64,000 nt of DNA from Streptomyces sp. NBC_01244 (lineage in GTDB: Bacteria > Actinomycetota > Actinomycetes > Streptomycetales > Streptomycetaceae). The notes beneath the pieces were generated by a model, which was not told the DNA's origin, made no database searches, and worked only from the letters and a program-made list of their open reading frames with translations. Where the stretch lies: positions 6,138,001-6,202,000 of the forward strand of contig NZ_CP108488.1 of the NCBI RefSeq assembly GCF_035987325.1, written 5' to 3'. Of this stretch, positions 44,008 through 56,793 are shown in pieces. The stretch's first letter is position 1; each line of letters opens with the position of its first letter. The position numbers and the translations under genes were made by a program.

Positions 44008-45220
44008 GTGATCCGTGCGTACAAGTTCCTCATGCGGCCCACCGCGGGCCAGGCGATCGCGCTGGGCGAGATGCTGCGTGATCACTGCTCGCTGTACAAC
44101 GGGGCTTTGCAGGAACGCCGTGTCGCTTACCGGCACGTATCGAAGACGTCCGTCAAGTACGGGCAGCAGTCCGCGCAGCTCAAGGAAATCCGGGCGTTCG
44201 ACCCGGAGCGGCAAGGGCGCTGGTCGTTCTCCTCCCAGCAGGCGACGCTTCGCCGGCTGGACAAGGCGTTCGCCGCGTTCTTCCGCCGGACCAAGTCCGG
44301 CGAGACTCCGGGCTACCCACGCTTCCGTGGCGTCAACTGGTTCGACACGGTCGATTTCCCCAGGGACGGCGATGGCTGCCGGTGGGATGCCACCCCGCAC
44401 GACCCCGTCACACGGGTCCGCCTGCAAGGCGTAGGCATATCAAGGTCAACCCGCACCGGTCGGTCGTCGGCAAGGTCAAGACCGTCTCGGCCAAGCGCGA
44501 AGGACGCCGCTGGTACGTGGTCCTGACCGCCGAGCAGCACCAGCCCGAGCCGCTGCCCACGACTGGGTCCGTGGTCGGCATCGACCTCGGGATCGCCAGC
44601 TTCCTCACCGACTCCAACGGCGCCTTCGTACCCAACCCGCGCCATGGCCGCCGTGCCGCTGCCCGACTGCTAGCCGCACAGCAGGCCCTCTCGCGGTTCC
44701 CGCGTGTCCGCCGGGACAAGCGCACCGCCAACCATCGCAGGGCCGTCGAGAAGGTCACCGAGCTGCACCGCAAGGTCCGGCGTCAGCGCCTCGATCACGC
44801 GCACAAGACCGCCCTGGGTCTGGTCCGCGCGCACGACTTCATCGCGCACGAAGACCTCAGGATTCGCAGCATGGTCAAGGCCCCACCGCGAAACCCGACC
44901 CCGAAACACCGGGCGGATTCCTGCCCAACGGGGCCGCCGCGAAGGCCGGTCTCAACCGCTCGATCAACGATGCCGGATGGGGGGTGTTCCTCACGATCCT
45001 CACCAGCAAGGCTGAAAGCGCCGGTCGGGAAGTGATCGCCGTGGACCCCCGCAACACCTCCAGGCAGTGCCCCGAATGCGGGCACACCGCCAAGGAGAAC
45101 CGGCCCACGCAGGAGAAGTTCCACTGCCAGTCTTGCGGCCACATCGCGCACGCGGACACGGTGGGCGCCCTGAACGTTCTACGGGCCGGGCTGGTCCGTC
45201 GCAACGCCAATACGGCATAG
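44008..45220 (+). pseudogene. tnpB: TnpB-type RNA-guided nuclease, two frameshifts
   Basis: The N-terminal piece starts at GTG 44008 (IRAYKFLMRPTAGQAIALGE). The reading moves by -1 near 44436 into KVNPHRSVVGKVKTVSAKRE and again near 44891 into LPNGAAAKAGLNRSINDAGW, ending 45220. Each step fits a single missing base. The catalytic Asp (VVGIDLGIASF), Glu (AHEDLRI) and final Asp (HADTVGALN) and the zinc finger (CPECGHTAKEN, CQSCG) all survive but in different frames. No tnpA is present. It is an IS200/IS605-type remnant. Confidence 0.88.
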
Positions 45221-45257: not shown

Positions 45258-45682
45258 GAGCTGGCGCTGCTTGGCGTGACCGCGCACTGCGTGGCCGACA
45301 TCTTCTTCAACGAGAAGCGCTGGGACGTCAAGAACACCCCCGGCTTCTTCCTCTCCCGCTGGGGCGCCGACTGGCCGTCCGGCGCACCCTTCCTCGCGCC
45401 GATCTACGACGGCCGGCAGATCGTCACCAACGGCACCAACTACAACCACGCCCAGCTCAACGACCCTGCGATCAACGCCGAGATCGACGAGATCGCCAAG
45501 CTGACCGACCTCGCGGCGGCCGGCAAGCGCTGGGGCGCCCTCGACAAGAAGATCGGCGAGCAGGCGCTCGACGTCCCGCTCTTCCACCCGGTCTACAAGC
45601 GGCTCGTCGGCAAGGACGTCAAGAACGTCGTCATCAGCGACTGGACCGGCGTCCTCGACGTCTCGCAGGTCTCCGTCAAGTG
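45258..45682 (+). pseudogene. C-terminal fragment of an ABC solute-binding protein (SBP family 5)
   Basis: About 140 residues in frame (ELALLGVTAHCVADIFFNEK, then TPGFFLSRWGADWPSGAPFL, ending VLDVSQVSVK) match the last part of a peptide-binding DppA-like lipoprotein. The first ~450 residues, signal peptide included, are absent: the fragment begins exactly at the TnpB element end and no SBP sequence lies to its left. The frame has no stop at the family end and stays open to 46136 over the next gene. Non-functional. Confidence 0.85.
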
Positions 45683-46663
45683 GCCCTCCTCGCCGGCCGG
45701 CCGGCGGCCGGGCCCGGGGCAGCCGCCCCGGGCCCGGGCCCCGGGCGGCAGATACTGCGGCGGCTGCGCGCCCGGCCCTCGGCCGTGGCGGCGGCCGCCG
45801 TCCTCGCGCTCCTCGTCCTCCTCGCCCTCACCGCACCGCTGTTCGCCCACCTCACCGGCCAGGACCCGAACGCCTACCACGACGAGCTCGTCGACTCCGC
45901 CCGCGGAGGCGTCCCGCTCGGCTCCTTCGGCGGGATCTCCGGCGAGCACTGGCTCGGCGTCGAACCGGGCACCGGCCGCGACCTGTTCACCCGGCTGCTC
46001 TACGGGGCCCGGATCTCGCTGCTCGTCGCGCTCGGCGCCACCGTCGTCCAGGTCCTCGTCGGGGTGGCCGTCGGGCTCGCCGCCGCACTCGGCGGCCGGT
46101 TCGCCGGGCAGGTCGTCAGCCGGTTCACCGACGTGATGATCGCCCTGCCCCTGCTGGTGATCGCCATCGCCCTCACCGCCGTCGTCCCGCCCGGGTTCCC
46201 GCGGCCACTGCTGCTGATCCTCGTCATCGGGCTGCTCGACTGGGGCGGCGTCGCCCGGATGGTGCGCGCCCAGACCCTCTCCCTCAAGGAGCTGGACTTC
46301 GTGGACGCCGCCCGGCTCTCGGGCAACGGCGCCCTGCGGATCGCCCGCCGGGAGCTGCTGCCCTCGCTGGCCGCGCCCGTCATCACCCTCGCCGCGATCA
46401 AGGTTCCCACCGCCATGGTGGTCGAGGCCTCGCTGTCCTTCCTCGGGGTCGGCGTGAAACCGCCCACCCCCTCGTGGGGACAGATGCTGTCCAGCGCCCA
46501 GACCTGGTTCCGCGCCGACCCCACCTACGTCCTGCTCCCCGCCGGGCTGCTCTTCGTCACCGTGCTCGCCTTCACGGTGCTCGGCGACGCCGTCCGTACG
46601 GCCCTCGACCCGCGCGAGGGCTCGCGGCTGCGGGTCGGCACCAGAAAGGAGCGCAAGGCGTGA
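45680..46663 (+). CDS. ABC transporter permease, DppC type
   Basis: A 327-aa protein from GTG 45680. About 40 Gly/Pro/Arg-rich residues precede the first span (VAAAAVLALLVLLALTAPLF). The EAA-like loop is FVDAARLSGNGALRIARREL, and the signature VVEASLSFLGVGVKPPTPSW is intact. Order is inverted relative to the first operon (DppC-type before DppB-type). With its cognate binding protein destroyed, the transporter probably lacks a dedicated substrate receptor unless another SBP is shared. Confidence 0.9.
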   Translation: MALLAGRPAAGPGAAAPGPGPGRQILRRLRARPSAVAAAAVLALLVLLALTAPLFAHLTGQDPNAYHDELVDSARGGVPLGSFGGISGEHWLGVEPGTGRDLFTRLLYGARISLLVALGATVVQVLVGVAVGLAAALGGRFAGQVVSRFTDVMIALPLLVIAIALTAVVPPGFPRPLLLILVIGLLDWGGVARMVRAQTLSLKELDFVDAARLSGNGALRIARRELLPSLAAPVITLAAIKVPTAMVVEASLSFLGVGVKPPTPSWGQMLSSAQTWFRADPTYVLLPAGLLFVTVLAFTVLGDAVRTALDPREGSRLRVGTRKERKA

Positions 46664-47652
46664 CCAGCTTCGTGCTCAAACGGACCGGCGGCGCACTGAT
46701 CGTGCTGCTCGCCCTGTCCGTCGTGATCTACGGCCTCTTCTACCTCGTCCCCGGCGACCCCGCCCGCCTCGCCTGCGGGGAGCGCTGCAACCCGGCGCAG
46801 ATCGCCCAGGTGCGCGAACAGCTCGGGCTCAACGCGTCGGTGGTCACGCAGTACCTGCACTTCCTCCAGGGGCTCCTCGTGGGCCGGGACTACTCCGGCG
46901 GCGCCGGACTCGTCCTGCACTGCGACGCGCCCTGCCTGGGATTCTCGTACCAGAACGACCAGCAGGTCACCGAGCTGCTGCTGGAGCGGCTCCCCGCCAC
47001 CCTGTCGCTGGCGCTGGGCGCGCTGGTGATCTGGCTCGTCATCGGTGTCGGCACCGGACTGCTGTCCGCGCTGCGCCGGGGCGGATTCACCGAGCGGGCG
47101 TTGACCGTGCTCACGCTCGCCGCCACCGGGACCCCCGTCTTCATCCTCGGGCTGCTGCTGCTCATGGCCGTCTGCGCCTACCTGCAGTGGCTGCCCTTCC
47201 CCACGTACGTACCGCTCGGCGACGACCCCGAGCAGTGGGCGTGGAACATGCTGCTGCCCCGGGTGACCCTCGGTTTCTTCGAGAGCGCCAAGTACGCCCG
47301 GCTGAGCCGCAGTTCCACGCTGGAGACGCTCGCCGAGGACCACATCCGCACCTTCCGCGCCTACGGGGTGGGGGAGCGGGCCGTCGTGACCCGGCACGCC
47401 GTGCGCGGGGCGGTCGCACCCGTGATCGCGCTCAGCGCGGTGGACTTCGGCACGATGATCGGCGGCGCCGTGCTGACCGAATCGCTGTTCGGGATCCCCG
47501 GGCTCGGCAAGACCCTCATCGACGGCGTCCGCGTGGTGGACCTCCCCGTGGTGGTGGGCGTGGTCCTCGCCATCGGCGCGGCCGTCGTGCTCGCGGGTGT
47601 CGTCGCCGACGTGCTGTACGCCGTCGCGGACCGAAGGGTGGTTCTGGCATGA
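46660..47652 (+). CDS. ABC transporter permease, DppB type
   Basis: A 330-aa protein from GTG 46660 (AGAAAGGAG at 46643-46650), overlapping the previous stop by 4 nt. TM1 is ALIVLLALSVVIYGLFYLVP. Two Cys pairs (ARLACGERCNPAQ and LHCDAPCLGF) lie in the outside loop after TM1, unusual for the family and possibly disulphide bonded. The coupling loop is DHIRTFRAYGVGERAVVTRH and the end is DVLYAVADRRVVLA. Coupled to the fused ATPase by ATGA. Confidence 0.92.
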   Translation: MTSFVLKRTGGALIVLLALSVVIYGLFYLVPGDPARLACGERCNPAQIAQVREQLGLNASVVTQYLHFLQGLLVGRDYSGGAGLVLHCDAPCLGFSYQNDQQVTELLLERLPATLSLALGALVIWLVIGVGTGLLSALRRGGFTERALTVLTLAATGTPVFILGLLLLMAVCAYLQWLPFPTYVPLGDDPEQWAWNMLLPRVTLGFFESAKYARLSRSSTLETLAEDHIRTFRAYGVGERAVVTRHAVRGAVAPVIALSAVDFGTMIGGAVLTESLFGIPGLGKTLIDGVRVVDLPVVVGVVLAIGAAVVLAGVVADVLYAVADRRVVLA

Positions 47653-49361
47653 CGCACGCACCGCTGGTGGAGGTCGCCGGCCTCACCGTCGAGTTCCCGG
47701 TCGGCCGGCCGGGGGAGTACGTACGGGCCGTGGACGGGGTGTCCTTCACTCTGGAGCCCGGCCGCGCGCTGGGCATCGTGGGGGAGTCCGGAAGCGGCAA
47801 GTCCACAGTCGCCACAGCCCTGTTGGGGCTGCACCACGGGACCGGGGCGAGGCTCGGCGGCACCGTCCGGGTCGGCGGCACCGACGTGGGCGCGGCCTCC
47901 CCGGCCCAGCTCCGGGAGCTGCGCGGGGCCGTCGCCGCGATGGTCTTCCAGGACCCGCTGAGCTCCCTGGACCCGTACTACGCCATCGGCGACCAGATCG
48001 CCGAGGTGTACCGGGTGCACGTCTGCGCCTCGCGGCGCGCGGCCCGGGCCCGGGCGGTGGAGGTGCTCGACCGGGTGGGCATACCCGACGCGGTACGCCG
48101 CTCCCGGGCGCGGCCGCACGAGTTCAGCGGGGGCATGCGGCAACGGGCCCTGATCGCGATGGCGCTGGCGTGCGAGCCGAAGCTGTTGATCGCGGACGAA
48201 CCGACCACGGCGCTCGACGTCACCGTCCAGGCGCAGATCCTCGACCTGCTGCACGGGCTGCGGGAGGAGCGGGGGCTCGGACTGCTGCTGGTCACGCACG
48301 ACGTGGGGGTGGCGGCGGAGAACGTGGACGACGTGCTGGTGATGCGGGACGGGGCGGTGGTGGAGCGGGGGGCGGTCGGCTCCGTGCTGTCGGCGCCCGC
48401 TGATCCGTACACCGGGGCGCTGCTGGCGGCGGTGCCGCGGCTCGACGCGGTGCGGGTGCCCTGGCCGGGGGCTGTACGGGCGCTGCCCGTGCCCGCGCCT
48501 CAAACGCCGGAGGGGCTGGATGTGGCTGAGCTGAATGTGGCTGAGCCGGATTCCGTGCCCGTAGTCGAGGCGTTTTCGCTGCGGAAGGAGTTCGGGCGGG
48601 GGAAGCGGCGGGTGGAGGCCGTCGGTGGGGTGTCGGTGTCCGTGCGGGGCGGGGAGACGCTGGGGATCGTGGGGGAGAGCGGCAGCGGCAAGAGCACCCT
48701 CGGGCGGATGCTCGTCGGGCTGCTGGAGCCCAGTTCCGGGCAGGTCCGGCGGGACGGGGTGGAGAGCGTCGGCCTGGTGCCCGGGGTGCAGATGGTCTTC
48801 CAGGACCCGGTGTCCTCGCTCAACCCGCGCCGTTCGATCGGCGAGTCCATCGCGGACCCGCTGCGGGCGGCGGGGGAGAGCGACCGGCGGGCGATCCGGG
48901 CCCGGGTCGGTGAACTGCTCGTCCGGGTGGGCCTGGAAGAGGCGCACTACGACCGCTACCCGCACGAGTTCAGCGGCGGCCAGCGCCAGCGCGTCGGGAT
49001 CGCCCGGGCCCTCGCGCCCCGGCCCCGGCTGATCGTCTGCGACGAGCCCGTCTCGGCCCTCGACGTGACCACGCAGGCGCAGGTCACCGCCCTGCTGGCC
49101 GAGCTCCAGCGGGAACTCGGGATCGCGCTGGTCTTCATCGCGCACGACCTCGCGGTGGTGCGTCAGGTCAGCGACCGGGTCGCCGTCATGCGGGGCGGGG
49201 TGATCGTGGAGGAGGGTCCCGTCGACGAGGTCTACGACCGGCCGGCGCACGCCTACACCCGCGAGCTGCTCGCCGCCGTCCCGTCCCTCGACCCCGCCGT
49301 GGCCGCCGCCCGCAGGCTCGGCCGGCGCCGTTCCGGGGGAGTGCTCGCGGGGGCCTCGTAG
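47649..49361 (+). CDS. Fused peptide ABC ATPase (DppD-DppF fusion)
   Basis: A 570-aa protein with two complete ATPase modules. The first has GESGSGKS at about 48-55, [15 protein letters not shown] and LLIADEPT; the second has GESGSGKS at about 343-350, [15 protein letters not shown] and LIVCDEPV. Each has a D-loop and H-loop (LVTHDVGVA, FIAHDLAVV). The linker (about residues 280-302) is partly encoded by a REP-like repeat and a 15-bp duplication. The C-terminal oligopeptide domain is shortened in both halves. ATG overlaps the permease stop. Confidence 0.93.
   Translation: MTHAPLVEVAGLTVEFPVGRPGEYVRAVDGVSFTLEPGRALGIVGESGSGKSTVATALLGLHHGTGARLGGTVRVGGTDVGAASPAQLRELRGAVAAMVFQDPLSSLDPYYAIGDQIAEVYRVHVCASRRAARARAVEVLDRVGIPDAVRRSRARPHEFSGGMRQRALIAMALACEPKLLIADEPTTALDVTVQAQILDLLHGLREERGLGLLLVTHDVGVAAENVDDVLVMRDGAVVERGAVGSVLSAPADPYTGALLAAVPRLDAVRVPWPGAVRALPVPAPQTPEGLDVAELNVAEPDSVPVVEAFSLRKEFGRGKRRVEAVGGVSVSVRGGETLGIVGESGSGKSTLGRMLVGLLEPSSGQVRRDGVESVGLVPGVQMVFQDPVSSLNPRRSIGESIADPLRAAGESDRRAIRARVGELLVRVGLEEAHYDRYPHEFSGGQRQRVGIARALAPRPRLIVCDEPVSALDVTTQAQVTALLAELQRELGIALVFIAHDLAVVRQVSDRVAVMRGGVIVEEGPVDEVYDRPAHAYTRELLAAVPSLDPAVAAARRLGRRRSGGVLAGAS
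48498..48545. repeat. REP-like element copy 2 inside the fused ATPase gene
   Basis: CCTCAAACGCCGGAGGGGCT at 48498-48517 is the reverse complement type of the 8149-8174 core and continues GGATGTGGCTGAG. The 15-bp unit at 48516-48530 is then repeated at 48531-48545 with one change. The element is in frame, encoding PQTPEGLDVAELNVAE in the linker. Confidence 0.75.
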
Positions 49362-49547: not shown

Positions 49548-51467
49548 GTGCCACTCGTGCGGATCGGACTGCTCACGGAAGGTGGTTATCCGTATGCGAC
49601 GGGGGAAGCGAGGCTGTGGTGCGACCGGCTCGTGCGCGGGCTTCCCCAGCACGAGTTCGAGCTCTACGCCCTGAGCCGCAGCGCCGAGCAGGAGGAGCGC
49701 GGCCGGGTGCCGCTGCCCTCCCACGTCACCCGGGTGCGGACCGCCCCGCTGTGGGCGCCGGCCGACGACGGACGCAGCTACCGCCGCCGTGAACGCCGCC
49801 GCTTCGCCGTCGCCTTCACGGAACTGGTCCGCGGGACATGCGGAGCCGACCCCGCGCGGTTCGCGGACGGGCTGTACGGGCTGGCCGCTCTCGCCTCGGA
49901 ACAGGGCGGGCTGTACGCGGCGCTGCGCTCCGAGACCGCCGTACGGGCCGTGGAGTCCGCCTGTCGCGCCCCGGAGGCGAGCAGGGAAGTGCAGCGGGCG
50001 CAGGTCGCGGACCTGCTGGAGTTCGTGGACGAACTGGAGCGGATGCTGCGGCCGTTGTCCCTGGACTGGTACGAGGAGCTCAGCGAGGTCGACGTCTGCC
50101 ACGCCGCCGCGGGCGGCGTCGCGGCGCTGCCCGGACTCCTGGCCAAACGCTTCTTCGGAGTGCCGCTCCTGGTCACCGAGTACGGGGTCCAGCTCCGGGC
50201 CCACTACCTCGCCCACTCCGCGACCTCCGCGCGGGACGAGCGGCCGGCCGTACGGGCCCTGCTCGCTGCGTTCCACACCCGGCTGGCCGGCGAGATCTAC
50301 TCCCAGGCCGACCTGCTCACCCCCGGCAACGCGCACGCCCGGCGCTGGCAGGAACGATGCGGGGCCTCCCGCGAGCGGCTGCGCACGGTCTACCCCGGGA
50401 TGGAGGCGGACCGATTCGCCGCGGTCGGCGAGGACCCGGCGTGCGGGGACCCGCACACCCTCGTCTGGGTCGGCCGGGTGGACCCCGCCAAGGATCTGAT
50501 CGCCCTGCTGCACGCCTTCGCCGAGGTGCGCAGGGCCGAACCGCTCGCGCGGCTGAGGATCTTCGCGACGGCGGGCGGATCCGGCAACCGGGCCGTCGGG
50601 CACGGCTACCTGGCCGACTGCCGCTCGCTCGCCGCGCAGCTCTTCCCCGACGAGGCCGCCGACGCGCACGCGGTCGGCGAGAACCCGGTCACCTTCGAGG
50701 AGATCGGCGGACCCGACGCACCGTCCCCGGCCGACGCGTACGGCTCCGGGCGGGTGGTGGTGCTCTCCTCCGTCATCGAGGGCTTCCCCATCACCCTGGC
50801 CGAGGCCATGTTCTGCGGCCGGGCCACCGTGTCCACCGACGTCGGCGCCGTCGTCGAGGTGATCGGCGGAACCGGGCTCGTCGTGCCGCCGCGCAACCCG
50901 CGCGCGCTCGCCGAGGCCTGCGTCTCGCTGCTGCGGGACCCCGAGCGGGCCCAGCGGCTCGGCTCGGCCGCCCGGGCACGGGCCCTCGAACTCTTCACCG
51001 TCGAGCAGAACGTCGCCGCCTTCCAGGAGTCCTACCTCCGGCTGCTCGCCCACGGCCCGGCCCGTCCCGACGGCACCGGCGTGCCCTTCGAGCAGCCGCC
51101 CGAGGCCCGGGTCCCGGGCCACTGGGCCACCCCCACCTGGGCCACGCCCCACCCCGGACCCGTGACCCCGTCCGCCCCTTCCGAGGGCCCGGCCCCCGAC
51201 CCGGCCGACGCATCGGCCCGCGGGGAAGGCGCCGGCCCGCCTCCGGGTGAGGCGTGGCCCGCCGCCGGCGCGGAGGCCGACGTGCCCGACCCACCCGACC
51301 CGGACCGGGCCGCCGACCAGGCCCCGCGCACGGGCCACGCCGAGGGCGCGGGTGCGGCACCGGGCGCGGGCACGGCACCGGGCGCGGGCACGGCACCGGG
51401 CGCGGACCGCGTCATGGTGCCCGCCGCGCGGGCCGCGCACGCCGCCGGTTCGGAGGCCTCCGCATGA
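49548..51467 (+). CDS. DUF3492/PelF-like GT4 glycosyltransferase
   Basis: A 639-aa protein from GTG 49548 (GGGAG 7 nt upstream). The N-terminal DUF3492 region (IGLLTEGGYPYATGEARLWC) and GT4 domain (TLVWVGRVDPAKDLIALLHA, SSVIEGFPITLAEAMFCGRA with the donor-binding Glu) give the PelF layout. A cytoplasmic retaining sugar transferase using UDP-sugar is expected. The last 130 or so residues are disordered, with an 18-bp repeat (TAPGAG) near 51356-51405. ATGA coupling to the next membrane gene. Confidence 0.87.
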   Translation: MPLVRIGLLTEGGYPYATGEARLWCDRLVRGLPQHEFELYALSRSAEQEERGRVPLPSHVTRVRTAPLWAPADDGRSYRRRERRRFAVAFTELVRGTCGADPARFADGLYGLAALASEQGGLYAALRSETAVRAVESACRAPEASREVQRAQVADLLEFVDELERMLRPLSLDWYEELSEVDVCHAAAGGVAALPGLLAKRFFGVPLLVTEYGVQLRAHYLAHSATSARDERPAVRALLAAFHTRLAGEIYSQADLLTPGNAHARRWQERCGASRERLRTVYPGMEADRFAAVGEDPACGDPHTLVWVGRVDPAKDLIALLHAFAEVRRAEPLARLRIFATAGGSGNRAVGHGYLADCRSLAAQLFPDEAADAHAVGENPVTFEEIGGPDAPSPADAYGSGRVVVLSSVIEGFPITLAEAMFCGRATVSTDVGAVVEVIGGTGLVVPPRNPRALAEACVSLLRDPERAQRLGSAARARALELFTVEQNVAAFQESYLRLLAHGPARPDGTGVPFEQPPEARVPGHWATPTWATPHPGPVTPSAPSEGPAPDPADASARGEGAGPPPGEAWPAAGAEADVPDPPDPDRAADQAPRTGHAEGAGAAPGAGTAPGAGTAPGADRVMVPAARAAHAAGSEASA

Positions 51468-52381
51468 CCGTGCCGCTGGACGAAGCCATCCCCCCGCTGG
51501 ACCCGCCTCCGACCCCGCCCCGCAGGGCACGCTCCGGCGGGGATCCCGTCAAGGCGCTGCTCCACCGCCACCGGGAGCTCTGCGAGCACGCCGTGGACCC
51601 GCTGGAGATCGCCGCCGGGCTGGAGGCGCACGGCATCACCGACCGCACCGCCGCCCGCTTCCGCCACCGGGACGTCTTCTCCCTCGCGGAGGAGCTCTAC
51701 GCCCGGACCCCCCGCGACGGCACCACACCGGCCCCGCAGGCGGGGATCCCGGTCCAGGCCAAGGCGGTACGCGGCTTCGGCTACGCGCTGCTGCCCGGGG
51801 CCCTCGCCCTCGGCGCGAGCGCCGCCGGGGTGCCCTGGGCCGGAGCCCTCGCCGCGCTCGTCACCGTCGCCGGGCTCGGACGGCCGGGCCGGGCCGCCGG
51901 GGGCCGCTTCCCCGCCGCCGTGTACCTGCTGGCCGCCGCCGCCCTCGGCTGGGCCGTCCACCGCCACGGCACCCCGCTCGGGACCGCCCTGGCCCTGGCC
52001 GTCGCCCCCGGGCACCTGGCCGGCGCCGTCTTCGCGGCCCGCGCCCGGCGCCGCCTCGCCGGGAGCCGGGCCCTGGAGGACTTCGCCGACGGGGTGAGAC
52101 CCCTGCTCCTCGGGACGCTCGCGCTGTACGCCGCCGCCGCCGCGGGGGCGGCCGCACTGACCGGGGCCCCCCTGGCGGTGGCCGTACCCCTCGCGCTGCT
52201 GCTCTTCCTGACCCGGCTGCTGCTCCGCCACGGAGCCCCCCGCGGAGCACTCGCGGCGGCCCCGGCCCTCGTACTCGCCCTGCTCCCGGTCCCGGCGGCG
52301 CCGTTCGCCGCCGTGGCGGGAGTCCTCGTACCCGCCGTCCTCGCGCTGTCGCGGGCCTCCGCGCACGCGCGGCGGCCCTGA
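51464..52381 (+). CDS. Multi-spanning membrane protein, 305 aa
   Basis: The ATG overlaps the glycosyltransferase stop. Residues 1-85 form a cytoplasmic domain (LEIAAGLEAHGITDRTAARF then RHRDVFSLAEELYA) that looks like a small helical module. The remaining 220 residues hold about eight Ala/Leu-rich spans. There is no clear match to PelG or Wzx/Wzy. Tight coupling to the glycosyltransferase suggests a partner in polysaccharide assembly or export. I do not recognise the family. Confidence 0.8.
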   Translation: MTVPLDEAIPPLDPPPTPPRRARSGGDPVKALLHRHRELCEHAVDPLEIAAGLEAHGITDRTAARFRHRDVFSLAEELYARTPRDGTTPAPQAGIPVQAKAVRGFGYALLPGALALGASAAGVPWAGALAALVTVAGLGRPGRAAGGRFPAAVYLLAAAALGWAVHRHGTPLGTALALAVAPGHLAGAVFAARARRRLAGSRALEDFADGVRPLLLGTLALYAAAAAGAAALTGAPLAVAVPLALLLFLTRLLLRHGAPRGALAAAPALVLALLPVPAAPFAAVAGVLVPAVLALSRASAHARRP

Positions 52382-52463
52382 TTCCTTCGGAAGCAGACAC
52401 CGAAGCGCCGTACCCGCCACCCCGATCCACCCATCCAGCAAGGAGACACAGGACGTAACGGGA

Positions 52464-52487
52464 TCCCCCTTCTGAAGGAGGGGGCTT
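52464..52487. repeat. Element-end hairpin, inverted copy of 45225-45248
   Basis: The reverse complement of these 24 nt matches 45225-45248 with one difference (stem CCCCCTTC/GAAGGAGGGGG). It lies about 20 nt after an orphan AAGGAG site (52440-52445) and marks the left end of the IscB-type remnant. Confidence 0.75.
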
Positions 52488-52553
52488 TCAGCCCGATGGA
52501 CTGACGGCCGCCGTTACCAGCACCAGCCAACACCCATATTGGAGGTGAACCAG

Positions 52554-53638
52554 TTGGCTACGTTCCGCTCACGACAGAAGACCGACCGCGCTGTGCTTCC
52601 TCAGCAGCTCGCTCTCGAATTCGAGTCAGCAGACACCCCCCGGATCGGGGACGAAACGGGGCTCGAAGGCCGTAGGGCACCGGGTGCGGAACATGTGCGA
52701 GAGGAGACCTCTGCAGCTTCATCCGGCGGCAGAGGCGTCACCCTCCAGTCCTCCGGGGCCGGGGAGGAGCCGCGTGAGCGGCACCCTCATGTTTTTGTAC
52801 TAGACAAGCACCACAGGCCGTTGCAGCCCACCAACCCAGCGCGGGCACGGAAGCTGCTCACGAAGGGACGTGCCGTCGTCCACCGGCACACACCGTTCGT
52901 TATCCGGTTGAAGGACCGCACCGTCGCCGAAAGCGAGATCGACGGGGTAGAGCTGGGTATCGATCCCGGCAGCAAGCACACCGGTATCGCCGTGTTCACC
53001 GCCGAGGCGGGGGAGCGTCGGGGCCGGTACAGCATCCAGCTTGATCACCGGGGCGCGACCATCCGCAAGAAGATGGAGCAGCGCGCCGCCTACCGGCGGG
53101 GCCGCCGTACCCGGAACCTGCGTCACCGCGCCCCGCGTTTCCTCAACCGCACGAAGCCGAAGGGCTGGCTCGCCCCGTCTCTCCGTCATCGCGTGGTCAC
53201 CACCCTGTCGTGGACGAACCGGCTGGCCCGCTGGGCTCCCGTCCGCAGCGTGCATGTGGAACGGGTCGCGTTCGACTCCACCAGGTGGGCACTATGGCGG
53301 GCCCTCGAAGCCCTGTCCTGGTCACCGGATGCGCAGGGCGCGGCACCCACACCCGCACCCGGCCGGACAAGCACGGCTTCCCCCGACTACGGATGCCCCG
53401 GCACAAACAGTTCTTCGGCTACGCCACCGGCGACCTCGCCCGCGCAGTCGTTCCCACAGGCAAGAACGCCGGCACCCACACCGGACGCATCGCTGTCCGA
53501 TCCACCGGCAGCTTCAACATCACCACCGCTCACGGCATCGTCCAAGGCGTCCGGCACAAACGCTTCCGCCTCCTCCAGCGGGCAGACGGCTACGCCTACA
53601 GCACAAGGCCCGAACGAAAGACCACCGATGCCGCCTGA
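52554..53638 (+). pseudogene. iscB: IscB-type nuclease remnant (HNH and RuvC-III deleted, frameshifted)
   Basis: TTG 52554 has GGAGGTG 6 nt upstream. After ~75 variable residues comes the PLMP-type motif VFVLDKHHRPLQPTNPARAR, RuvC-I GVELGIDPGSKHTGIAV, an Arg-rich bridge helix (YRRGRRTRNLRHRAPRF) and RuvC-II VHVERVAFD. The sequence then jumps to STRWALWRALEAL, which normally follows the HNH, and changes frame into PVLVTGCAGRGTHTRTRPDK ... VRHKRFRLLQRADGYAY, the C-terminal domain. HNH and RuvC-III are missing, so no nuclease activity is expected. Confidence 0.85.
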
Positions 53639-53685
53639 CCGCCAGAGCACTGCGATTCGCCGTGGCGGCGAGTCCCAGCGGTTTT

Positions 53686-53740
53686 CCTGCTCCGCAGGAG
53701 CTTTGTTTCCTCCCCCAGCCAAAGCAGGGGGTTTCCACGA
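53686..53740 (+). repeat. Right-end hairpins of the IscB remnant
   Basis: CCTGC-TCC-GCAGG (53686-53698) and a CCCCC/GGGGG stem (53712-53731) followed by TTTCC lie just after the remnant and before the epimerase leader. They resemble transposon-end or scaffold hairpins; the precise boundary is not visible. Confidence 0.5.
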
Positions 53741-53785
53741 AGGGATCACGATGACCGGCCAGCCAACCAACCAAGGGGCCGCGCG

Positions 53786-54811
53786 ATGAGGGTGTTGCTG
53801 ATCGGAGCCAACGGATACCTCGGACGCTACGTCGCGGACCGCCTGCTCGCCGACCCCGCGGTCCAGCTCACCGCGCTCGGCCGCGGCGACGACGCCGACG
53901 TCCGCTTCGACCTCGCCACCGGCAGCCCCGGCGCGCTCACCCGGTTCCTCGACGCCGTCCACCCGGGCGTCGTCATCAACTGCGCGGGAGCCACCCGGGG
54001 CGGCGCCCGCGAGCTCACCCGGCACAACACCGTCGCCGTCGCCACGATCTGCGAATCGCTGCGCCGCAGCGGCTGCGGCGCCCGGCTCGTCCAGCTCGGC
54101 TGCGCCGCCGAGTACGGGCCCAGCCAGCCCGGGTCCTCCACGGCCGAGGACGCCGTGCCCAGACCCGGAGGGCCGTACGGAGTCAGCAAACTGGCCGCCA
54201 CCGAGCTCGTCCTCGGCTCCGGGCTGGACGCCGTCGTCCTGCGGGTCTTCTCGCCCGTCGGCCCCGGCACCCCCGCCGGATCCCCCCTCGGCCGGCTCGC
54301 CGAGGCCATGCGGCGCGCGATGCAGTCCGGGGACGGCGAGCTCAAGCTCAGCGGGCTCGGCGTCCAGCGCGACTTCGTCGACGTACGCGACGTGGCGCGG
54401 GCGGTGCACGCCGCCTCGCTGTCGGCGGCCCAGGGCGTCGTCAACATCGGCACCGGCCGGGCGGTCCGGCTGCGCGACGCGGCCGCCGTGCTGGCGCGGG
54501 TCGCCGGGTACGGAGGCTCGCTGCACGAGATCGACGTACCGCAGCACGGACAGCACGCGCAGCACCCGCAGGCGCACGGACACCCCGGCCGGCCCACCGG
54601 GCTCGCCGCCATCGGCTCCCCGCGTTCCGAGGCCACGGCCGAGCAGCTCGCCGCCGCGACGGCCCAGCCCCCGTACCCCTACCCGGACGGCTGCGGAGCC
54701 TGGCAGCAGGCGGATGTCCGTACCGCCCGCGACCGGCTCGGCTGGCGGCCGCGGATCAACCTGGAGGAATCCCTCGCGGACATCTGGATGGAGGCGGCGT
54801 GCCGCATCTGA
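53786..54811 (+). CDS. NAD-dependent epimerase/dehydratase (extended SDR)
   Basis: A 341-aa protein. The nucleotide motif GANGYLG lies at residues 7-13 and the catalytic YGVSK at about 132-136; RVFSPVGPGTP and RDFVDVRDVARA are typical of nucleotide-sugar 4-epimerases and 4,6-dehydratases. A His/Gln-rich insert (QHGQHAQHPQAHGHPG) precedes the C-terminal part. The IscB remnant separates it from its probable original leader at 52440. It overlaps the spherulin-4 gene by 13 nt, so both work together. Confidence 0.9.
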   Translation: MRVLLIGANGYLGRYVADRLLADPAVQLTALGRGDDADVRFDLATGSPGALTRFLDAVHPGVVINCAGATRGGARELTRHNTVAVATICESLRRSGCGARLVQLGCAAEYGPSQPGSSTAEDAVPRPGGPYGVSKLAATELVLGSGLDAVVLRVFSPVGPGTPAGSPLGRLAEAMRRAMQSGDGELKLSGLGVQRDFVDVRDVARAVHAASLSAAQGVVNIGTGRAVRLRDAAAVLARVAGYGGSLHEIDVPQHGQHAQHPQAHGHPGRPTGLAAIGSPRSEATAEQLAAATAQPPYPYPDGCGAWQQADVRTARDRLGWRPRINLEESLADIWMEAACRI

Positions 54812-55551
54812 CCACCCCGCCGGCCGCCGGCCAGGCGGCCACCGAGGCGGGCCGGCTGGGATTAGGGGTCCCCGGGTACGCGCATCCGCTGCTGGCCCCG
54901 GTGGAGTGGGCCGAGCTGACCCGGCCCGGCACGCCGCTGCACTGGGCCGTCCTCAACGTCACGGACGGGCCGGGCGGCCGGCCCGACCCGCACTGTACGG
55001 AGGCGGCCGCGAAGCTCCGCGGCGCGGGCGGCGCGGTCCTCGGGCATCTCGCGATGCGAGACGGAGAGCGGTCGTTCGGGGAGCTCGTCTCCGACGCCCA
55101 CCGCTTCCGCGACTGGTACGGAGCCGACGGCTTCTACCTCGCGGACGCCCCGGCCGGGAACGCGGAGCTGGCCTCCGTACGCCGGGTCGTGGACACCCTG
55201 CGGGGACTCGGCGAGGGGCTGCGGATCGTCCTCGGACACGGCACGCACCCCTGCGAGGGGTACACGGAAACCGCGGACCAGCTGGTCACCTTCTCCGGGA
55301 GCTGGGCCGACTACCGCTGGTCGCAGGTGGCGGAGTGGACGGCCGACCACCCGCCGGAGACGTTCTGCCACCTCGTGCACGGAGTACCGCGCACGCACCT
55401 GGAGGAAGCGCTCCGGATCGCCCGCTGGCAGGGCGCGGGGACCATCTGGTTCACCGACCGGCGCGGGGCCGCTCCGCTGGATCCCTGGGCCTCGATGCCC
55501 GGGTATTGGGACGAAATCGTCTCGCGGATCGGACCGGGTGTCTCGGAATGA
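54799..55551 (+). CDS. Spherulation-specific family 4 (GH135-like) protein
   Basis: A 250-aa TIM-barrel-type protein from GTG 54799. GVPGYAHPLLAPVEWAEL, WAVLNVTDGPG, GHLAMRDGERSF, YGADGFYLADAP and WSQVAEWTADHP follow the spherulin-4 pattern. Fungal Sph3 of this family (GH135) cleaves alpha-1,4-linked galactosamine polysaccharide. No signal peptide is visible, which is odd for a secreted hydrolase. The gene pairs with an epimerase and a PelF-like transferase, pointing to amino-sugar polymer metabolism (inference). Confidence 0.85.
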   Translation: MPHLTTPPAAGQAATEAGRLGLGVPGYAHPLLAPVEWAELTRPGTPLHWAVLNVTDGPGGRPDPHCTEAAAKLRGAGGAVLGHLAMRDGERSFGELVSDAHRFRDWYGADGFYLADAPAGNAELASVRRVVDTLRGLGEGLRIVLGHGTHPCEGYTETADQLVTFSGSWADYRWSQVAEWTADHPPETFCHLVHGVPRTHLEEALRIARWQGAGTIWFTDRRGAAPLDPWASMPGYWDEIVSRIGPGVSE

Positions 55552-55614: not shown

Positions 55615-56793
55615 GTGTCGCTGCCACCCCTGGTAGAGCCAGCTGCTGAGCTCACCGTTGACGAGGTCCGTCGGTACTCCCGCCACCTGATCATCCCCGA
55701 CGTGGGGATGGACGGCCAGAAGCGCCTGAAGAACGCCAAGGTGCTGGCCGTGGGCGCGGGCGGCCTCGGCTCGCCCGCCCTCATGTACCTGGCCGCGGCC
55801 GGCGTCGGCACGCTGGGCATCGTGGAGTTCGACGAGGTCGACGAGTCGAACCTGCAGCGCCAGATCATCCACAGTCAGGCGGACATCGGCCGTTCCAAGG
55901 CCGAGTCGGCCCGCGACAGCGTGCTGGGCATCAACCCGTACGTGAACGTGGTCCTCCACGAAGAGCGGCTCGAAGCCGACAACGTGATGGAGATCTTCAG
56001 CCAGTACGACCTCATCGTCGACGGCACGGACAACTTCGCCACGCGCTACCTCGTGAACGACGCCTGCGTGCTGCTGAACAAGCCGTACGTGTGGGGCTCG
56101 ATCTACCGCTTCGACGGCCAGGCCTCGGTCTTCTGGTCCGAGCACGGCCCGTGCTACCGCTGCCTCTACCCGGAGCCGCCCCCGCCGGGCATGGTCCCGA
56201 GCTGCGCCGAGGGCGGCGTGCTGGGCGTGCTCTGCGCGTCCATCGGGTCCATCCAGGTCACCGAGGCCATCAAGGTCCTCACCGGCGTCGGCGAGTCGCT
56301 GGTCGGCCGTCTGATGATCTACGACGCCCTGGAGATGCAGTACCGCCAGGTCAAGGTCCGCAAGGACCCCGACTGCGCGGTCTGCGGTCCGAACGCGACC
56401 GTCACCGAGCTCATCGACTACGAGGCCTTCTGCGGCGTCGTGTCGGAGGAGGCCCAGGAGGCCGCGCTCGGCTCGACGATCACTCCCAAGCAGCTCAAGG
56501 AGTGGATCGACAACGACGAGCCGATCGAGATCATCGACGTCCGCGAGATCAACGAGTACGAGATCGTCTCGATCCCCGGCGCGAAGCTGATCCCCAAGGG
56601 CGAGTTCCTGATGGGCACCGCCCTCGCGGACCTGCCGCAGGACAAGCGCATCGTCTTGCACTGCAAGACGGGTGTCCGCAGTGCGGAAGTCCTCGCGGTC
56701 CTGAAGTCCGCGGGCTTCGCGGACGCGGTCCACGTCGGCGGCGGCGTCATCGGCTGGGTCCACCAGATCGAGCCCGAGAAGCCGGTCTACTAA
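55615..56793 (+). CDS. moeZ: Adenylyltransferase/sulfurtransferase MoeZ
   Basis: A 392-aa protein from GTG 55615 (CGGAG upstream). The E1-like ThiF/MoeB domain has VLAVGAGGLGSPALMYLAAA for ATP and paired zinc Cys (YRCLYPEPP, CAVCG). A C-terminal rhodanese domain carries the active-site Cys in LHCKTGVRS. It activates and thiolates small sulfur carriers such as MoaD, ThiS or CysO for molybdopterin, thiamine and cysteine synthesis. Mycobacterial moeB1 lies in the same neighbourhood. Complete. Confidence 0.96.
   Translation: MSLPPLVEPAAELTVDEVRRYSRHLIIPDVGMDGQKRLKNAKVLAVGAGGLGSPALMYLAAAGVGTLGIVEFDEVDESNLQRQIIHSQADIGRSKAESARDSVLGINPYVNVVLHEERLEADNVMEIFSQYDLIVDGTDNFATRYLVNDACVLLNKPYVWGSIYRFDGQASVFWSEHGPCYRCLYPEPPPPGMVPSCAEGGVLGVLCASIGSIQVTEAIKVLTGVGESLVGRLMIYDALEMQYRQVKVRKDPDCAVCGPNATVTELIDYEAFCGVVSEEAQEAALGSTITPKQLKEWIDNDEPIEIIDVREINEYEIVSIPGAKLIPKGEFLMGTALADLPQDKRIVLHCKTGVRSAEVLAVLKSAGFADAVHVGGGVIGWVHQIEPEKPVY

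Follow-up and report, generated by a model that had tools for sequence, protein, structure and literature searches.

Does the block of four genes in Streptomyces sp. NBC_01244 that encodes a PelF-like glycosyltransferase (GT), a membrane protein (TM), a short-chain dehydrogenase/reductase (SDR) and a spherulin-4 protein (SPH) constitute a minimal exopolysaccharide system of the Pel or galactosaminogalactan (GAG) type, as proposed in the first-pass annotation? The window, a stretch of 64,000 nucleotides, contains all four genes (Table 1). As described before, the start of TM overlaps the end of GT by ATGA, and SDR and SPH overlap by 13 bp.

Table 1 Features of the locus, in positions of the window
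Feature	Position	Strand	Basis
GT, PelF/DUF3492-type GT4 glycosyltransferase homologue	49548..51467	+	Pfam, NCBIfam
TM, membrane protein, 305 aa	51464..52381	+	open frame; no family match
Inserted IscB-type element, TM-SDR spacer	52455..53750		comparison with relatives
IscB remnant open frame	52539..53789	+	RRXRR, 210 bits
SDR, extended short-chain dehydrogenase/reductase	53786..54811	+	Epimerase, 127 bits
SPH, spherulin-4/GH135-fold protein	54799..55551	+	PF12138, 68 bits
MoeZ, conserved 3' neighbour anchoring the locus	55615..56793	+	Pfam, NCBIfam

The order GT-TM-SDR-SPH-MoeZ was found in all 68 named loci with enough flanking sequence; the other 12 of the 80 had too short a flank and were left out, TM was scored on its N-terminal 70 residues, and the GT match in locus L108 comprised 67 residues only. 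The contiguity that was to be sought in other Streptomyces without the insertion is thus present, and the conserved order rules out a chance neighbourhood. Nearly all Streptomyces examined retain the four-gene set. Outside the moeZ locus, a spherulin-4 gene lies at most 6 kb from a DUF3492 gene in 14 of 17 loci (197 genomes of the class, mostly of the same genus). SDR is present in 112 of the 121 family genomes. SPH is absent from four Streptomyces loci (L142-L145), GT/TM are absent or fragmentary in three (L052, L148, L149) and L146 is also degraded; in the wider family no more than 6 of 20 loci yielded an SPH. Since SPH or GT/TM are missing in several Streptomyces, the four genes are not strictly interdependent. 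The IscB remnant had been thought to cut the locus; the insertion is, however, precise and sits wholly in the spacer between TM and SDR, which excludes the interruption of a gene. Five of the six relatives compared have an empty, uninterrupted site, and the sixth, Streptomyces sp. AP-93 (L056), has a longer copy, relative to which the window element is internally deleted. The remnant frame matches only the N-terminal half of the model and extends 39 bp beyond the element.

Family and fold of SPH agree with Sph3. In addition to the Pfam match, its sequence matched Sph3 (PDB 5c5g/5d6t) with an E-value of 1e-6, and the fold search with the predicted structure (mean pLDDT 69) returned Sph3 first (5c5g/5d6t, E-values 1e-10 and 7e-11, TM-score 0.67); the structural comparison with Sph3 proposed earlier thus gives SPH a GH135-type fold. 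The putative catalytic residues of Sph3 are D166, E167 and E222 according to a passage of PMC10485009; a passage of PMC12054363 prints Asp196/Glu222. At D166, E167 and E222 the window protein has A, D and S, with A115 and S166 replacing D166 and E222. The pathway idea had been made dependent on these carboxylates, and on this point it failed. Of 104 distinct moeZ-linked sequences from Streptomyces, one keeps E222 and 103 have lost it, and no acid occupies this position in 228 of 231 database proteins, but all eight paralogous clusters and Allostreptomyces retain E222. D166 persists in 56 of the 104 moeZ-linked Streptomyces sequences, and the E167 position is Q in L033, the paralogue from the window genome, whose SPH gene lies at 9506-10210 of L033. 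E179 does not vary among the 44 rows of alignment A2 and might in principle take over from the missing glutamate. The best reading of the window SPH is a putative pseudo-hydrolase, and such spherulin-4 genes should not be annotated as hydrolases. As noted before, no signal peptide was seen: the top hydrophobic 12-residue stretch within the first 45 residues did not exceed 1.47 in the 231 database proteins, a scan that used annotated starts and had one value only from the paralogous clusters. Several records annotate these spherulin-4 genes as phage tail proteins. Locus L137 also holds a second spherulin-4, 32 % identical.

The assignment of GT as a PelF-like, DUF3492-containing GT4 transferase was confirmed by Pfam (PF11997, 123 bits) and by the NCBIfam PelF equivalog, here marginally (100.5 bits for a cut-off of 100; the paralogue reaches 171.4). 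The functional motifs of GT4 enzymes are the GG loop, EHG, GR..K and E-x7-E. The window GT carries GEAR instead of GGVS in the GG loop and TEYG instead of TEHG; GR..K and E-x7-E are retained. Among 94 Streptomyces sequences the second glycine of the loop is E/D in 90 and the histidine is tyrosine in 91. Because at least 90 of the 94 retain E-x7-E, and likewise GR..K, the Streptomyces GT may still be capable of sugar transfer. As aligned, the transferase motif is missing from several sister genera. TM had no Pfam or NCBIfam match. It had been described as an eight-span protein; a simple hydropathy count gave five strong spans in the window protein, not a clear eight, and four to eight across the 18 orthologous proteins counted. 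Its N-terminal part (approximately window residues 19-118) is common to the 532-aa membrane protein of a paralogous cluster, a close relative of which models as a MOP fold, and the membrane part of the window TM is shortened. The earlier remark that TM is not recognisably PelG held, as the PelG Pfam model (PF16933) matched nowhere in the genome; at the Pfam level PelG identity was rejected. SDR retains YxxxK and the Gly-rich motif, and cysteine replaces the serine at the position which we take to be catalytic (109 of 109 sequences). Among solved structures, SDR is best matched by GDP-6-deoxy-hexulose and GDP-6-deoxy-mannose reductases, a UDP-glucose 4-epimerase following in sixth place, and its galE score of 33.6 bits lies below the cut-off of 262.3. 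The proposed role as UDP-hexosamine 4-epimerase therefore found no support.

The origin of the block is indicated by related clusters. The window genome also carries a paralogous cluster, composed of an Agd3(CE18)-like deacetylase, a PelF-type transferase, a membrane protein, a spherulin-4 and a GH114 protein, and in Allostreptomyces psammosilenae (G304) a complete, catalytic-looking GAG-type set adjoins MoeZ. Descent of the four-gene block from a GAG/Pel-like cluster is supported by these paralogous and ancestral-type clusters, which combine Agd3-like deacetylase, spherulin-4, PelF-type transferase and SDRs, with GH114 in 6 of 11. Among 131 moeZ-linked loci, Agd3-like and GH114 queries matched the Allostreptomyces locus alone, versus 10 and 6, respectively, of the 11 control clusters; tblastn revealed no Agd3-like deacetylase in the window. 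Alignment A3 omits the deacetylase row of L136, whose extracted stretch held a stop. In the SDR tree, which carries long-branch warnings, Allostreptomyces joined the moeZ-linked clade (87/86); it fell on the paralogous-cluster side in the GT tree, and at the base without resolved placement in the SPH tree. From the complete, catalytic-looking clusters of Allostreptomyces and the paralogue to the non-catalytic one, a natural series is available for testing the changed proteins. The complete bacterial gene set of Allostreptomyces also bears on the bacterial origin of the fungal cluster, already proposed in the portions of PMC4817252 and PMC7229062 consulted.

The median dN/dS was lowest for SDR (0.08), followed by SPH (0.17), GT (0.25) and TM (0.43), in 14 comparisons of a close relative with the window, which argues against decay. 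The presumed orthologues in S. coelicolor are SCO5174-5177, matched by gene order and the descriptions in the papers, not by sequence, with SCO5176 presumably the SDR and outside the three genes with expression values. Among the matches listed in a search of the open-licence literature for a Streptomyces spherulin-4/PelF locus, only two papers bore on this locus, both with SCO5174-5177 among their genes. According to PMC3610822, SCO5174, SCO5175 and SCO5177 are up in MII, the differentiating mycelium, by a log2 of 2.2-3.8, approximately 5- to 14-fold. The findings as a whole tie a little-studied core locus of Streptomyces, whose expression apparently rises in differentiation, to the machinery for GAG/Pel polymers.

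In a working minimal Pel/GAG pathway GT would polymerise GalNAc, SDR would supply UDP-GalNAc, TM would export the polymer and SPH would trim it. Of this first proposal the conserved block and the GAG/Pel-like ancestry stood, the latter by virtue of the paralogous clusters; the working pathway with its hydrolase did not. We regard it as improbable despite the family memberships, the conserved operon, the GAG-type paralogue in the same genome and the retained E-x7-E, in view of the nearly universal loss of the catalytic glutamate and the changes in GT (glycine loop, His) and SDR (Ser to Cys), together with a shortened TM, an SPH without visible signal peptide and the lack of a deacetylase in 130 of 131 loci. 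A slowly decaying relic without function would fit the several genomes that have lost SPH or GT/TM and the disappearance of catalytic motifs in different genera, but is hardly credible with the low dN/dS medians, replacement residues that are themselves conserved (Cys in 109 of 109, Tyr in 91 of 94) and the wide presence of SDR in the family. Rather doubtful, and yet clearly ahead of these two, is an active GT with changed donor or acceptor, acting for instance in the glycosylation of a glycan or lipid at the membrane, with SPH as glycan-binding partner and SDR making a 6-deoxy amino sugar nucleotide, as suggested by the type B clusters, which combine a LegB-like 4,6-dehydratase, a nucleotidyltransferase and an SDR. 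The retained E-x7-E and GR..K and the 4-keto reductases among the top PDB matches of SDR are consistent with it, as are a GDP_Man_Dehyd-type SDR and a nucleotidyltransferase adjoining the SDR homologue in Allostreptomyces and in the type B cluster L140 (there LegB-like, 449.6 bits for a cut-off of 475) and a LegB-like protein (437.5 bits) encoded at another site of the window genome. However, no dehydratase or nucleotidyltransferase was seen at the window locus, the glycine loop and His are changed, and in 8 of the 17 transferases of family loci examined the alignment shows no Glu at the first position of E-x7-E.

On balance, the sequences favour the locus as a moeZ-linked, Streptomycetaceae-wide derivative of a complete bacterial Agd3/Sph3/PelF cluster that has been repurposed. 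Because the cutting residues of SPH are lost and its partners are altered at key positions, the set probably serves a different purpose now, perhaps in development. A GalNAc polymer would no longer be made or trimmed by the locus. The altered GT would sit on a reduced, MOP-like TM, SPH would serve as a cytosolic, non-hydrolytic glycan-binding or scaffold subunit, SDR would supply or sense a nucleotide sugar, and the complex would act on a cell-envelope glycan at the switch to differentiating mycelium. Only tentatively do we suggest that an exopolysaccharide synthase cluster was de-catalysed whole, with active-site positions altered in each of hydrolase, transferase and sugar-nucleotide SDR and the exporter cut down, and kept through the radiation of the Streptomycetaceae as a development-induced, non-enzymatic membrane complex, a pseudoenzyme operon.

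Among known systems, the Gram-positive Pel operon pelDEA(DA)FG, as far as described in excerpts of PMC7112168, also has a PelF-family transferase adjoining a multi-span membrane protein, and its PelD is likewise reported to contain epimerase domains considered inactive. The window locus differs in that no PelA, PelD or PelE was matched by Pfam among 20 frames scanned around it, in a genome without a PelG match. The fungal GAG cluster uge3-sph3-agd3-ega3-gtb3, through which fungi produce a sticky coat of sugar, likewise unites a spherulin-4, an SDR and a glycosyltransferase, but in the fungi Sph3 is enzymatically active, Uge3 serves as the epimerase and a deacetylase is present (parts of PMC4817252 and PMC7229062). 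Unlike the bacterial Agd3/CE18-type operons, the window locus and 129 other moeZ-linked loci are without agd3 or GH114 match, the window SPH lacks the catalytic glutamate and the window TM is short. With these operons, for which a section of Bamford et al. 2020 (PMC7229062) describes a cytoplasmic glycosyltransferase with a multi-span membrane protein, joined by a spherulin-4 gene in some Actinobacteria, it shares these three components, and the paralogous cluster of the window genome is of this kind.

The coordinates that the first-pass annotation gave for the transferase (GT), the membrane protein (TM), the SDR and the spherulin-4 protein (SPH) hold up, as do the coupling of GT and TM by an ATGA overlap and the overlap of SDR and SPH, which measures 13 bp. 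In the profile search of the window, MoeZ is next after SPH. With 100.5 bits the GT lies barely above the PelF equivalog cut-off of 100. The membrane protein, formerly described as eight-span, has five strong hydrophobic segments; 4 to 8 were counted in the other 18 orthologous proteins. An IscB remnant had been thought to cut the locus, but the element breaks no gene. In L034, L035, L036, L053 and L055, five of the six relatives examined, its site is uninterrupted; the sixth, Streptomyces sp. AP-93 (L056), carries a longer IscB copy there, so internal parts have been lost from the copy in the window. An Opp-type ABC transporter operon lies between DUF3152 and GT, its ATPase part being matched in 30 of 68 relatives' loci. 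An IS605-type OrfB transposase gene, in two overlapping frames, is probably broken.

Features of the window and of related clusters
Feature	Location	Match or gene row
GT	49548-51467	DUF3492, 123 bits
SDR		Epimerase, 127 bits
SPH		Spherulin4, 68 bits
IscB element	52455-53750 (exact)	
Opp-type operon	45276-49361	
OrfB transposase	44008-45035	
Cluster L033, window's own genome		deacetylase-GT-TM-SPH
Second cluster form, other Streptomyces (Pfam check in L140)		deacetylase-GT-TM-SDR1-nucleotidyltransferase-SDR2-SPH
Allostreptomyces cluster (G304), ending at MoeZ		Agd3-like, GT, TM, GDP_Man_Dehyd-type SDR, nucleotidyltransferase, SDR, SPH, GH114
Clusters behind the 6-deoxy amino sugar idea	L140 10455-13154; L173 8545-11524	
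Further spherulin-4 gene, window genome	G000:C1:1556049-1556780	

Elsewhere in the window genome a second DUF3492 gene and a second spherulin-4 gene lie about 3 kb from each other (cluster L033), and the sole GH114 match of the genome adjoins this cluster. A further spherulin-4 gene lies outside both clusters. The L033 deacetylase alone stays under the Pfam Agd3 cut-off (21.3 vs 27.6 bits); a nine-row alignment of the deacetylase family retrieves Agd3 (6NWZ), the galactosaminogalactan (GAG) deacetylase, with E 1.7e-17, the strongest part of the match covering positions 38-279 of the 657-position profile. In the second cluster form SDR1 is near LegB (449.6 bits, cut-off 475) and SDR2 has about 40% identity to the window SDR. 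The deacetylase-type clusters L140 and L173 combine a nucleotidyltransferase and an SDR with another SDR that is LegB-like or of the GDP_Man_Dehyd type, which hints at a 6-deoxy amino sugar in their polymer. Some paralogous copies are incomplete: the deacetylase was not found in L135, SPH not in L139 and L141, and L138 gave no TM match. Across 197 genomes of the class, Pfam models found DUF3492 in 19 and spherulin-4 in 14, the latter model overlooking some moeZ-linked spherulins; leaving aside the moeZ locus, a spherulin-4 gene lay within 6 kb at 14 of the 17 remaining DUF3492 loci.

The contiguity of the four genes, on which the first-pass annotation made its reading depend, recurs elsewhere: the order GT, TM, SDR, SPH, MoeZ was present in 68 of 68 loci with enough flank (80 named loci kept, 12 too short), with TM scored on its N-terminal 70 residues and one locus, L108, counted despite a GT match of 67 residues only. 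Of 101 genomes of the genus, 98 gave a match to SPH, which judged by identity is the moeZ-linked copy in about 95, and 93 gave a match to TM. Within the genus, L142-L145 have no SPH between SDR and MoeZ, GT/TM are absent or fragmentary in L052, L148 and L149, and the block of L146 is degraded. At E 1e-60 the SDR was matched in 112 of 121 family genomes (15 of 17 genera); SPH was detected in six of 20 family loci fetched around SDR (L153, L155, L156, L166, L167, L168). Several public records (P0011, P0044, P0113 and others) label spherulin-4 proteins of the moeZ-linked type as phage tail proteins.

The excerpted text of PMC10485009 names D166, E167 and E222 as putative catalytic residues of Sph3, the fungal GH135 hydrolase; that of PMC12054363 prints Asp196/Glu222. 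The window SPH has A, D and S for D166, E167 and E222. The earlier proposal, a functioning GAG/Pel pathway that includes a hydrolase, is not supported. Among 104 distinct moeZ-linked Streptomyces SPH (from 107 proteins in 111 loci), D166 is kept in 56 and E222 in one, that of Streptomyces bambusae T110 (L090), which has Ala for D166. The E222 place of 231 database proteins listed holds E in one (Allostreptomyces) and D in two. Both D166 and E222 are kept in all eight SPH of paralogous clusters examined, seven of these with an Agd3-like gene. In the structure model of SPH (mean pLDDT 69) A115 ends one strand and S166 lies near the end of another; Sph3 was its top match in the fold search.

Transferase and SDR are altered as well. 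GGVS, EHG and E-x7-E are present in 10 of 10 paralogous-cluster GTs. Of the moeZ-linked Streptomyces GTs at 111 loci, 94 had the length needed for scoring; in these the second Gly is E or D in 90 (gaps in the other four) and His is Tyr in 91; R, K and the two Glu are retained in 90, 91, 90 and 93, respectively. The first Glu of E-x7-E is absent as aligned in 8 of 17 family-loci transferases. All 109 moeZ-linked SDRs have Cys for Ser and keep Y and K; Ser is retained in 6 of 6 second-form SDRs. The functional roles of the scored GT4 and SDR positions are presumed.

Among 131 moeZ-linked loci, deacetylase and GH114 queries matched that of Allostreptomyces psammosilenae alone; the other 130, including the 64-kb window, gave no match. 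In a control set that contains the query clusters themselves, these queries matched 10 of 11 (deacetylase) and 6 of 11 (GH114). The Allostreptomyces GH114 scores 276 bits, and an opposite-strand frame (radical SAM/BATS) precedes MoeZ. All checked motifs are intact in its GT and SDR, as are D166 and E222 in its SPH (P0247). The SDR tree, which carries long-branch warnings, places Allostreptomyces with the moeZ-linked clade (87/86) and apart from the second form; in that of SPH it sits at the base, without further resolution. In the GT tree it groups on the paralogous-cluster side, as could happen with a slowly changing protein of ancestral type. A complete cluster is taken to be the ancestor of the window-type block, whose descent from a GAG-type cluster is well supported.

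Median dN/dS between the window and 14 near relatives was 0.08 for SDR, 0.17 for SPH, 0.25 for GT and 0.43 for TM, with neighbouring MoeZ at 0.13 (14) and DUF3152 at 0.41 (10 relatives). We treat SCO5174-5177 of S. coelicolor as the putative orthologues of the block, going by the gene order beside SCO5178 (moeZ). As excerpted, PMC3610822 tabulates SCO5174 (the transferase), SCO5175 and SCO5177 among the conserved genes of unknown function with the strongest differential expression; they are log2 2.2-3.8 higher in the second mycelium at 24, 48 and 72 h. PMC6585502 reports lower actinorhodin output in SCO5174 mutants; SCO5176 was found in the text of neither. The most likely reading is a putative membrane-associated complex that would unite a glycan-binding pseudo-hydrolase with a changed transferase and serve in development.

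Open-licence literature matches listed on this locus type included neither the moeZ-linked derivative nor the loss of its catalytic residues nor the Allostreptomyces cluster. The known type is that of the bacterial Agd3-type operons (PMC7229062), where spherulin-4 in Actinobacteria is already mentioned.
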